Below, one piece after another: positions 28,495-31,995 of a stretch of DNA of 64,000 nucleotides (position 1 is its first letter; each line of letters begins with the position of its first letter). The notes below the pieces were generated by a model. That model saw only the letters and a program-made list of their open reading frames with translations, did not search any database and was not told the origin of the DNA. The stretch is from assembly GCF_002214365.1 (NCBI RefSeq), contig NZ_CP014854.1, positions 1,116,001 through 1,180,000 on the forward strand, given 5' to 3'. Position numbers and translations under genes: made by a program. The DNA is from Thermococcus celer Vu 13 = JCM 8558. GTDB taxonomy: Archaea > Methanobacteriota_B > Thermococci > Thermococcales > Thermococcaceae.

Positions 28495-28800
28495 TCAGGA
28501 TTTTGCACTTTCTCTGACGTTGTTCCATGAGTAGCTGGACTCGATGAGCTCCGCCACCGTTATGTGTTTCTCTTCGGTTATCGTGGGCTCAAATTCCTTC
28601 AGGCTCTCGAGGAGCTCTTCCTTCGGGAGCGCCTCCTCGTCGAAGACCACGTAGCCGTTCTTGGCGTAGCCGTTGAGGAAGGCCCTCCAGACCCTTCCGT
28701 CCTTGAGGAGCTCGTACTGCTTCGCCGTCGCCCTCTCCCAGTCGATGTTCCCGAACCTGAACCTGAGCATCGTCAGCTTTTTCTCCCCGTTAACGGTCAT
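28495..28800 (-). CDS. Small conserved hypothetical protein downstream of the Tes-like gene
   Basis: 101 residues from the ATG at 28800 (GAGGTGGTTGGG upstream). The sequence is mixed alpha/beta with many acidic and aromatic residues (FRFGNIDWERATAKQYELL at about 13-31; PKEELLESLKEFEP at about 60-75). No recognised domain and no cysteines. Its start lies 10 nt after the stop of the large radical SAM gene in the same direction, so it is co-transcribed and may be a partner or accessory subunit; that is inference from the operon only. Confidence 0.65.
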   Translation of the reverse strand: MTVNGEKKLTMLRFRFGNIDWERATAKQYELLKDGRVWRAFLNGYAKNGYVVFDEEALPKEELLESLKEFEPTITEEKHITVAELIESSYSWNNVRESAKS

Positions 28801-28810
28801 CCCAACCACC

Positions 28811-31800
28811 TCAGTGCTTCTCCATGACCCCGAGGTAGTCCTCGATGTCGATGTAGGTCTTCCTGTAGAGCTCGCTCTTCTTCATCTTCTCCACGAACTC
28901 CTTCGTCCTGATGTACTTGTCCTTCCTGTAGTCCCAGTCGGGGTGGAGCGCCTTCCACTCCTCCCAGCTGTAGCTGAACTGGGCCTGCACCTTATCCCTG
29001 TAGAGCTCGGGAATCACGTTGAACGTACAGAAGGGCACTATCCTGCCATCGGGCATCGCGTAGTGGATGACGCAGCGCTCGACCCTCTCGACGTCGTAGT
29101 TGTACTCGTCCATGAAGTGCATCATTCCCAGGAAGAGCGCATTGGTGTGGAACTTTCCGAGGGCGTCGTAGTTGCCGTGGACGAAGGCGTTCTTTATGAG
29201 CTCGAGGACGCTGAGGCCCTTGGGGGCGTACTTATCGTCGTAGAAGCTCTTGAACTTCATGAATATCTCGGCGCCGAGCTTGAGCCTGCGGAGCTTGCCC
29301 ATCTTCTTCCACTGCTCTATCTCCTCAGCCTTGCTCTCCAGGAACTCAACGAAGCCCTCAACGTCGAGGAACCTGCTTATCGGCACCACCCGCTTGTTCT
29401 CCCTGTCGAGGAAGGCGTAGGTTGCCGCGCCGCAGGCGTAGTGGCTGGTCATGTAGTACTTGCTCCCGGCGAAGACCTCGAAGAACCTCGCTATGTGACC
29501 CGCTATCGGTATGGGATACCAGTCGTCCTGGGCTATGGCCCCGTGGGTCTGCTCCTCTATCCGCTCTATGGCTCCGGGTATCGTTATCCTGAAGCGCTGG
29601 CGCTCCCTCTTCGGAACCCTCCCGACGAGGGAAATCGGCTGGAAGTTCACGCCCCTCACTATGTCGAGGTGGTTGAGGGCGAAGTTTATCATCGCCCCGA
29701 GCTCGTGGTCGTTGACGTTCCTTATGGTGGTCGGCACGAGGACTATGCCCGGCCCGCCGGCCTTCCTGACGTTATCGAAGATGAGCGGGACCTCCCAGTG
29801 GTTCTTCCAGTTGGTCTGGGGCGTCATGCCGTCGTAGCTCATGTAGAGGGTGTTAACGCCAGCCTCCCTGATTTTCTTAACGAGCTCCGGTTCAAATGCG
29901 AGCTTTATTCCGTCCGTGTTGAGCTGGACGTGGTCGTAACCTTCTTCCCTTGCGATCCTGATTATCTCGATGAGGTCATCCCTCAATGTGGGCTCTCCAC
30001 CGGTGAGCTGAACCGCGTTCGCTCCGATGGGCTGCTCCTTCTTCGCGTTGCGGAGCATCATCCGTATCTGCTCGAGCGTGGGCTCGTATATCGGCTGGCC
30101 CTCTTTGGCGTAGAAGAAGCAGTTGCTCACGAGTAGACCGTCGGAGGCAACGAACGAGTGTCCGGGGCTCTCGACTTCAATGTCGTAGACGTATCCCGAG
30201 TAATCCTCCTCTTCGATGCTCTTCACCGGATCGAGGTAGAAGTCGCTGACCTTCGTTATTCTTGCGGGCTTCCTCGCCCCAACCTCACCCAGTCTCTCCC
30301 TGTGGCCCTCCCCGAGTTCGACTACCTCAATGAGCCTCTCGAGGTCCTTTCCGGCCACGTATACCTTGTAGAGGTCGTGGTTCGCCCCCGCAACCTTCTC
30401 CTTTTTGACCTCGTAGACCCTCGCAAAGATCCCGAAGGATGCGAGTAGATAGAGAACGTCCCTTATCAGGCCGCGGGAGACGCTGGCGTAGCCGATGTTC
30501 AGGTGTCTCTCGCCCCTCACAACGTAGCCATCGCCGTTGAGTAAGCCTGAGAGGAGTGCCGCCCTGACCTCGTAGGGGTAGTTGAGGAAGTCCCTCGGGA
30601 GCCTCTTGTTCTCTGCCTTTTCAGGGATTCCGAGGGCGTACTTGAAGACGAGGCGGACCAGTCTGCTCCCGATCACTATCTGCTTCGCCTTCCCTTCGGC
30701 CTCAAGGATGCTGTGGGGAAGCTTGAGCTCCTTGAGGATAGATAGTATCTCCTCTTCAACGTCCTTATGGCCAACCGTTATGCGGACATCTTTGTCTGTG
30801 TAGTGCCCGTCCGACACGAAGTAGCCTATGAGCCTTGCGAGGGGGGGAGTGACCTCAAGTTTCGAGGGCAGTTCATAATCGGTCGCGTCCCTCCCGAGCC
30901 TGAACTCGCCCGGGACGTTTAGCTTGTAGAAGGCGCTTAAAGGCATTGAGTCCTGGCTCTTCCAGGAGTAAATCCTGTCCCCGTATTCCTCCTTCAACGG
31001 GGAAAGGTCGATTCCCCCTATGCCCCTGACGTAGGTCTTCTCCTTCTCCTCCTCGGGCAGGGATTTAAACGCCTCAATCAGGTCTATGGTGTAGGGTGCA
31101 CCGCTCTCCGGGATCCTCCACGTTGAGAGAAGCTCGTCGCCCGGTTTGAGCTCGTCGGCCCTCTTCTTCACGAGCTTTCCGTCCACGTGGACGAACACCT
31201 TGTGCTCCGGGGTGACCCTCAGCGTCCTCCCCGTTCCCGTTCTTATCCTGAGGATCTTGCCCTCGTGTCTCCTCCTGAGGAATTTGGTTACCTTCGTCCA
31301 CCTGGCCTCCCCGTCCTCGAAGGTCAGGACGTGGATATCATCGGGCGTTGAGTACTCTCCCTTGAACCCGTCGATCTCAACTTTGTTCTCGAAGGAGAAC
31401 CTCTTGGCAAGGTCCCCGAACTTCAGGAGACTCACCTCGTTTCCGACCTTGAAAACCGCCTCCTCGTCCGGGGGGAAGCAATACCAGCAGCTCAAATTGC
31501 ACCTGTTCGTCAAAACGATGTTTATCAGGCTCGTGTGGGAGCGGTGCCTTGAGCAGAGACCGCAGTCGAGAGGACAGTTGGCGCCTGTGTTCTCGACGTT
31601 GGAACTCGTGATCTTGAAGTCGTACCTCCACTTCTGGAACCTGTAGTACTGCTCAACGCTCTCGTAGTAAAGACCGGTTATCATACCCTCGGGGCAGCGC
31701 TTGGTTATCCACACCCTGCCGTCCTTCTCCCACACGAGGGCGGGAACGACCCTCCTCGTCTCGGGACAGAGAGAGTAGGTCCTGTGGGGCAGGGGGCCGC

Positions 31801-31942
31801 CGTAGGCCCTGCTGGCCCTTCTCATCATTTTCTCGAACTCATCCTCACCTATCTCGGGGAACTCGATTACGTCCCTGATCCTCCTCGTTAATTGCTCGAA
31901 CTCCTTCTCGCCACTCGGCACCTCACCAACGTTTTCTGCCAT
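28811..31942 (-). CDS. Radical SAM protein of the Tes (tetraether lipid synthase)/MJ0619 type, containing an intein
   Basis: 1043 residues from the ATG at 31942 (GGTGAATGGGT upstream); about 590 residues remain after removing the 453-residue intein. Extein features: C59 and C83 (SLCPETRR, KRCPEG) as for a rubredoxin-like iron site; C123-x3-C127-x2-C130 (CPLDCGLC); HTSLINIVLTNRC leading into the radical SAM motif C148-x3-C152-x2-C; GGEPTLRDD; and a C-terminal CVIHYAMPDGRIVPFC. This cysteine layout fits the MJ0619/Tes class, which joins two archaeol lipids by C-C bonds into GDGT tetraethers. The Tes role is inferred from memory of the family. Spliced protein is required: the intein splits the cluster motif. 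Confidence 0.75.
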   Translation of the reverse strand: MAENVGEVPSGEKEFEQLTRRIRDVIEFPEIGEDEFEKMMRRASRAYGGPLPHRTYSLCPETRRVVPALVWEKDGRVWITKRCPEGMITGLYYESVEQYYRFQKWRYDFKITSSNVENTGANCPLDCGLCSRHRSHTSLINIVLTNRCNLSCWYCFPPDEEAVFKVGNEVSLLKFGDLAKRFSFENKVEIDGFKGEYSTPDDIHVLTFEDGEARWTKVTKFLRRRHEGKILRIRTGTGRTLRVTPEHKVFVHVDGKLVKKRADELKPGDELLSTWRIPESGAPYTIDLIEAFKSLPEEEKEKTYVRGIGGIDLSPLKEEYGDRIYSWKSQDSMPLSAFYKLNVPGEFRLGRDATDYELPSKLEVTPPLARLIGYFVSDGHYTDKDVRITVGHKDVEEEILSILKELKLPHSILEAEGKAKQIVIGSRLVRLVFKYALGIPEKAENKRLPRDFLNYPYEVRAALLSGLLNGDGYVVRGERHLNIGYASVSRGLIRDVLYLLASFGIFARVYEVKKEKVAGANHDLYKVYVAGKDLERLIEVVELGEGHRERLGEVGARKPARITKVSDFYLDPVKSIEEEDYSGYVYDIEVESPGHSFVASDGLLVSNCFFYAKEGQPIYEPTLEQIRMMLRNAKKEQPIGANAVQLTGGEPTLRDDLIEIIRIAREEGYDHVQLNTDGIKLAFEPELVKKIREAGVNTLYMSYDGMTPQTNWKNHWEVPLIFDNVRKAGGPGIVLVPTTIRNVNDHELGAMINFALNHLDIVRGVNFQPISLVGRVPKRERQRFRITIPGAIERIEEQTHGAIAQDDWYPIPIAGHIARFFEVFAGSKYYMTSHYACGAATYAFLDRENKRVVPISRFLDVEGFVEFLESKAEEIEQWKKMGKLRRLKLGAEIFMKFKSFYDDKYAPKGLSVLELIKNAFVHGNYDALGKFHTNALFLGMMHFMDEYNYDVERVERCVIHYAMPDGRIVPFCTFNVIPELYRDKVQAQFSYSWEEWKALHPDWDYRKDKYIRTKEFVEKMKKSELYRKTYIDIEDYLGVMEKH
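30122..31480 (-). other. Intein with LAGLIDADG homing endonuclease, inserted in the [4Fe-4S] motif
   Basis: 453 residues from Cys155 to Asn607 of the precursor. Block A starts CFPPDEEAVF; block B holds the TxxH motif (RVTPEHK); two LAGLIDADG-type motifs are RLIGYFVSDG and LLSGLLNGDG, about 90 residues apart; the C-terminal block is YDIEVESPGHSF...LLVSN followed by Cys608 as +1 nucleophile. That Cys608 is the third cysteine of the CX3CX2C cluster motif, so unspliced enzyme cannot bind the cluster. The penultimate intein residue is Ser rather than the usual His. The endonuclease motifs look intact, so homing may still be active. Confidence 0.95.
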
Positions 31943-31995
31943 ACCCATTCACCCCTTTTTCCACTCCCTTTGCTGGCCTCTGTTTCGCTTCAGGA

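Follow-up and report, generated by a model that had tools for sequence, protein, structure and literature searches.

The window analysed here is a stretch of 64,000 nucleotides from Thermococcus celer Vu 13 = JCM 8558, and all positions given for this organism count from its first letter. On its minus strand, at 28811..31948, lies an ATG-initiated open reading frame of 1045 residues, which encodes a radical SAM protein interrupted by an intein; once spliced, the mature protein would have 592 residues. The precursor scores 2151.6 bits over the whole length (positions 1-1040 of 1040) of the NCBIfam model NF045703, 'tetraether lipid synthase Tes, intein-containing', whose curated cut-off is 1700 bits, and the protein also passes the Tes equivalog NF045702, with 677.8 bits against a cut-off of 450. 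Pfam finds Radical_SAM in the exteins, and residues 50-550 of the mature extein protein match the solved GDGT-macrocyclic archaeol synthase (GDGT-MAS; PDB 7tol/7tom) with E=2.2e-132. By these family assignments the host of the intein is Tes, the enzyme behind the heat-resistant, membrane-spanning tetraether lipids of archaea, and its enzymatic role is predicted from the models and from homology. A DUF3213 gene (28495-28809, minus strand) begins one base past the end of tes; given this spacing and the shared strand, the two may be co-transcribed.

Two CX3CX2C motifs are found in the exteins. The earlier one, CPLDCGLC (31553..31576, minus strand), lies uninterrupted within the N-extein, and its three cysteines are invariant in 16 aligned Tes proteins. 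The N-extein itself (residues 1-156; 31481..31948, minus strand) ends, as read at the junction, with TNRCNLSCWY, of which CNLSCWY (31481..31501) supplies the first two cysteines of the interrupted motif, Cys-7 and Cys-3 as counted from the junction. The C-extein (28814..30121, minus strand) opens with CFFYAKEG. Joined, the exteins read CNLSCWYC, and the TNRCNLNCPIC of the solved enzyme aligns with the interrupted TNRCNLSCWYC. The first residue of the C-extein, Cys+1 (30119-30121), is consequently assigned two roles: it completes the radical SAM motif as its third cysteine and would act as the second nucleophile in splicing, as the preliminary description of this DNA had proposed. In radical SAM proteins generally, the cluster is held at the position of this later motif.

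The intein occupies 30122..31480 on the minus strand, 453 residues corresponding to residues 157-609 of the precursor. Both junctions, as read, agree to the base with the location first proposed. Its first residue, Cys1 (codon 31478-31480), is its only cysteine, and its last is Asn453 (30122-30124). Between them we recognise the block B splicing motif TPEH (TxxH; 31202..31213), the block F strand GYVYDIEV (30173..30196) and the F/G region HSFVASDGLLVSN (30122..30160), in which the terminal Asn is preceded by Ser (30125-30127) in place of the usual His. Two LAGLIDADG-type motifs of a homing endonuclease, LARLIGYFVSDG (30806..30841) and LLSGLLNGDG (30527..30556), each keep their acidic residue. 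Searched alone, the intein matches the Pfam families Intein_splicing (E=5.5e-21) and LAGLIDADG_3 (E=4.7e-20), and Hom_end is likewise found in it; judged by these values, it is far past a chance match. With a splicing profile, Cys1, TxxH, terminal Asn and Cys+1, it is by its motifs a class 1 intein carrying a full LAGLIDADG homing endonuclease. Cleavage of DNA by this endonuclease is predicted from the motifs, and the recent transfer among relatives described below is in keeping with it.

The comparison covered 19 full-length Tes inteins of 439-457 residues; since all come from related archaea, counts across them are not independent. A partial intein (G088), left out of this set, has additional cysteines in its C-terminal 245 residues. 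In 18 of the 19, Cys1 is the sole cysteine and neither LAGLIDADG motif has lost its acidic residue; the exception (L062) has one extra cysteine and an Asn in the second motif. No mini-intein and no loss of the endonuclease region occurs among the 19. The penultimate Ser is common to all of them (19/19). Most inteins have His at this place, which is usual and not obligatory.

The Ser could slow or impair cyclisation of the Asn, and it raises the question of whether the intein splices at all. An intein that is defective in splicing, or that has other boundaries, so that Tes is not restored, seems to us very improbable. Ser-Asn is shared by every full-length allele, the block A, B and F motifs and Cys+1 are intact, and the joined exteins match alleles that are free of the intein. 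Moreover, between T. celer and its nearest relative (G034) dN/dS is about 0.12 and about 0.07 in two parts of the intein, replacement being far rarer than synonymous change. Splicing of the T. celer allele would be expected to follow the class 1 route, as its motifs suggest.

The preliminary description held that the enzyme could assemble no [4Fe-4S] cluster before splicing. This does not follow from the arrangement of the cysteines: the precursor keeps CNLSCWYC, its third cysteine being Cys1. With a CX3CX2C thus complete, the absence of a cluster from the precursor is a hypothesis and not a consequence of the interruption. The same reading of the motif suggests a different possibility, in which iron or a cluster binds Cys-7, Cys-3 and Cys1 before splicing and blocks or times the attack of Cys1, and splicing then passes the slot to Cys+1. 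In its favour, the precursor reads CNL[SAN]CWYC followed by F or L at all 16 Thermococcales loci where both junctions are readable. Cys1, on the other side, is dictated by splicing chemistry, so that the precursor motif comes free at this insertion site. Nor is the geometry given by an AlphaFold model of the precursor (16 aligned sequences; mean pLDDT 73.9, pTM 0.55), in which pLDDT falls below 50 at residues 151-156 and 610-617; the model yields the expected fold matches, and its cysteine geometry at the junctions is unusable. We consider such binding improbable, and equally so a metal-sensing gate in which loading or loss of iron or a cluster at the decoy CX3CX2C times the splicing of Tes. 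Were that gate real, the synthesis of membrane-spanning tetraethers would be tied to the iron and redox state of the cell.

Alleles free of the intein at the same site, whose existence had been proposed as a check, are abundant. The C-extein matches at E<=1e-60 in 87 of 94 Thermococcales genomes searched, and the insertion site is readable in 85 of these, the other two matches (G061 and G063) being fragments. Of the 85 genomes, 17 have the intein, with both junctions in 16 and just the C-terminal one in G088. The other 68 lack it; 67 of them were classified by script and one (G078) by eye because its site reads CFFYH. Among the 67 script-classified loci, 53 read TNRCNLSCWY/CFFYAK (the slash marks the insertion site) and the other 14 vary in neighbouring residues only, which supports the inferred boundaries. 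Alleles with and without the intein do not differ in the kinds of residue that flank the site.

A C-extein tree was built from 92 rows, comprising the 85 Thermococcales and seven named contigs; 20 rows have the intein. On this quick tree, which has many open forks, presence of the intein needs at least 16 changes. Beyond the Thermococcales, a same-site Tes intein occurs in three of the named contigs, two labelled Thermoproteota (L056, L057) and one from the Archaeoglobaceae (L062), which may reflect transfer or mis-binning. Several single cases are recorded here for completeness. In one genome of the same genus (G023; 99% complete, single contig), neither Tes nor two genes next to it gave a match, and this stretch is probably missing from the sequence copy searched. 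In another (G000:C1:1316020-1317487), the N- and C-parts of the intein match in two separate open frames of 1071 and 256 residues, which may be a frameshifted or split intein gene. Genomes of genus g8 (e.g. G099, G101, G102), relatives at the level of the class, have two Tes-like matches each, in frames too short for the Tes intein. An in-frame TGA within the C-extein matches of several genomes hinted at selenocysteine; at the loci checked, the expected C-terminal sequence comes just before it and the frame closes with it, which makes the TGA a real stop that the alignment reads through.

Mobility is most apparent in three genomes, G076, G077 and G081 (loci L125, L124 and L123), whose near-identical inteins lie inside more diverged Tes genes. 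Over 1365 nucleotides, the intein of G076 shows no difference from that of G081 and agrees with that of G077 at 1346. Between G076 and G077, 60-nucleotide windows of the C-extein are 78-98% identical. On the N side of the insertion, identity is 87-97% at a distance and climbs through 95 and 98% to 100% at the site, and on the C side it is 98% in the first window and 88% in the second, a gradient that fits the co-conversion expected of homing. Their synonymous divergence is 0.69 in the C-extein and only 0.016 and 0.038 in the two parts of the intein; this comparison covers five hand-picked pairs with approximate endonuclease bounds, and the other four pairs lack such a contrast. Judged from these alignments, the three genomes are a case of recent homing with co-conversion. 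For the T. celer allele recent transfer is not visible, as its intein is more diverged from that of G034 than its C-extein is (87% against 92% identity). One scan of viral contigs for a phage vector of the Tes intein returned five pattern matches, none of them a relative.

A redox link for such an intein has been reported in Pyrococcus abyssi, where a disulfide between Cys-3 of the N-extein and Cys1 of the intein controls and blocks splicing of the 'MoaA' intein, according to the reviews PMC10663303 and PMC3922620. We searched the genome of P. abyssi GE5 (G004, so identified because a 3444-base plasmid contig in it is 100% identical to NC_001773.1) for the gene concerned. It contains 26 Radical_SAM matches, equal to 25 loci by frame, and only one of these loci lies in a frame that also matches an intein: a frame of 1052 residues at 657857-660976, which scores 2149.2 bits against NF045703. 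Its site reads CNLNCWY/C, so Cys-3 is present. The true MoaA of P. abyssi is found in a 329-residue frame at 108862-109776, with 414.5 bits on an archaeal MoaA model (cut-off 325.25), and this frame contains no intein. Since the only intein-bearing radical SAM gene scores as Tes and the true MoaA is intein-free, the published 'MoaA' intein is probably the one described here, at the same site of an orthologous tes. Its redox trap was reportedly described in the original by Callahan et al. 2011, and reviews quote the intein as a natural example of redox control.

The probable re-assignment from MoaA to Tes is a contribution of this analysis. In the literature searched, a single paper brings intein together with tetraether and GDGT terms, and its sole mention of an intein concerns a translation factor. 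If the re-assignment is true, the physiological story of the intein moves from the protection of MoaA to membrane lipid synthesis, and its readout becomes tetraether content.

The T. celer junction (CNLSCWY/C) has both cysteines of the reported trap, Cys-3 of the N-extein and Cys1. The preliminary description had suggested that oxidation or metal binding at the +1 cysteine could control splicing. The redox link is chemically sensible and, in the papers' account of the P. abyssi intein (PMC10663303, PMC3922620), has been reported; the pair involved there is Cys-3 and Cys1, not the +1 cysteine. A direct link from redox state to activation of the enzyme, also put forward at first, is conceivable, whereas a standing switch is disfavoured by the 68 of 85 genomes without the intein and by the endonuclease kept in the 19 full-length alleles.

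In its full form, such a switch would use the Cys-3/Cys1 disulfide to keep Tes inactive under oxidising stress, shielding an oxygen-sensitive enzyme, as radical SAM enzymes are, and gating the formation of membrane-spanning lipids. The trap of the P. abyssi intein and the oxygen sensitivity of the host speak for this, as does the lone Cys1: with no second cysteine inside 18 of the 19 inteins, its disulfide partners would be the cluster cysteines of the extein. Set against it are the many Thermococcales that do without the intein, the lack of any mini-intein among the full-length alleles, and extein residues near the site that are alike in kind whether or not the intein is present. The lone cysteine itself was considered as a mark of redox tuning and ruled out, since other intein-bearing frames of the Thermococcales are cysteine-poor as well: at 12 loci with other inteins in P. 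abyssi and two relatives, seven whole frames have 1-4 cysteines and four have 8-12, in a rough count in which the inteins are not exactly delimited and two loci are the same kind of gene. We therefore regard an adaptive switch as unlikely, although less so than metal binding or failure to splice; the evidence leans against a general selected role, and a benefit in particular species is possible.

The reading that we prefer, with a probability of about 0.88, is that of a class 1 homing intein in the radical SAM motif of Tes whose redox sensitivity is incidental, the P. abyssi 'MoaA' intein being the same intein. Splicing would begin with an N-S shift at Cys1, after which the N-extein would move to Cys+1, itself the third cysteine of the cluster motif; the terminal Asn would then cyclise and the exteins ligate to CNLSCWYC, leaving spliced Tes with the contiguous peptide CNLSCWYCFFYAK. 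Upon oxidation, a Cys-3/Cys1 disulfide, possible because the site is spaced as CXXC, would trap the precursor and stop the first splicing step, as reported for P. abyssi. For the T. celer allele this trap, and any role in the cell, is suggested by analogy. Homing would be the main reason why the intein persists, and its insertion site lies in a stretch of tes that is among the most conserved in the gene.

Earlier work has described the insertion site, the family to which the intein belongs and the idea of redox control. A dedicated NCBIfam model, NF045703, exists, and the T. celer intein is accordingly not new: its protein is a member of that family, with no difference found. What we add is the probable re-assignment from MoaA to Tes, the identity of the cysteine involved, and the evidence for homing.

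Several known systems bear comparison. GDGT-MAS (MJ0619; 7tol, 7tom) aligns with residues 50-550 of the mature extein protein and is without an intein at the site. PI-PkoII (PDB 2cw7) and the VMA inteins (7qss, 7qsu) share the HINT plus LAGLIDADG architecture, 2cw7 matching the T. celer intein with E=4.7e-20 in sequence and E=1.7e-24 in fold; they reside in other host genes and are about 20% identical to it in the fold alignments. The Pab PolII intein, which is described in PMC3922620 as forming a disulfide between Cys1 and Cys+1, is archaeal too and has junction cysteines able to form such a bond. It differs in host gene and in cysteine pair, and it comes nearest to the first proposal of a controlling +1 cysteine; a Cys1/Cys+1 disulfide may, by analogy, also form in the T. 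celer intein. The P. abyssi 'MoaA' intein, finally, was published in a protein of molybdenum cofactor synthesis and belongs to Tes by our searches, and its redox trap has been reported, that of the T. celer allele being a prediction; the two share the insertion site in orthologous genes and the same Cys-3/Cys1 pair, and are 70% identical.
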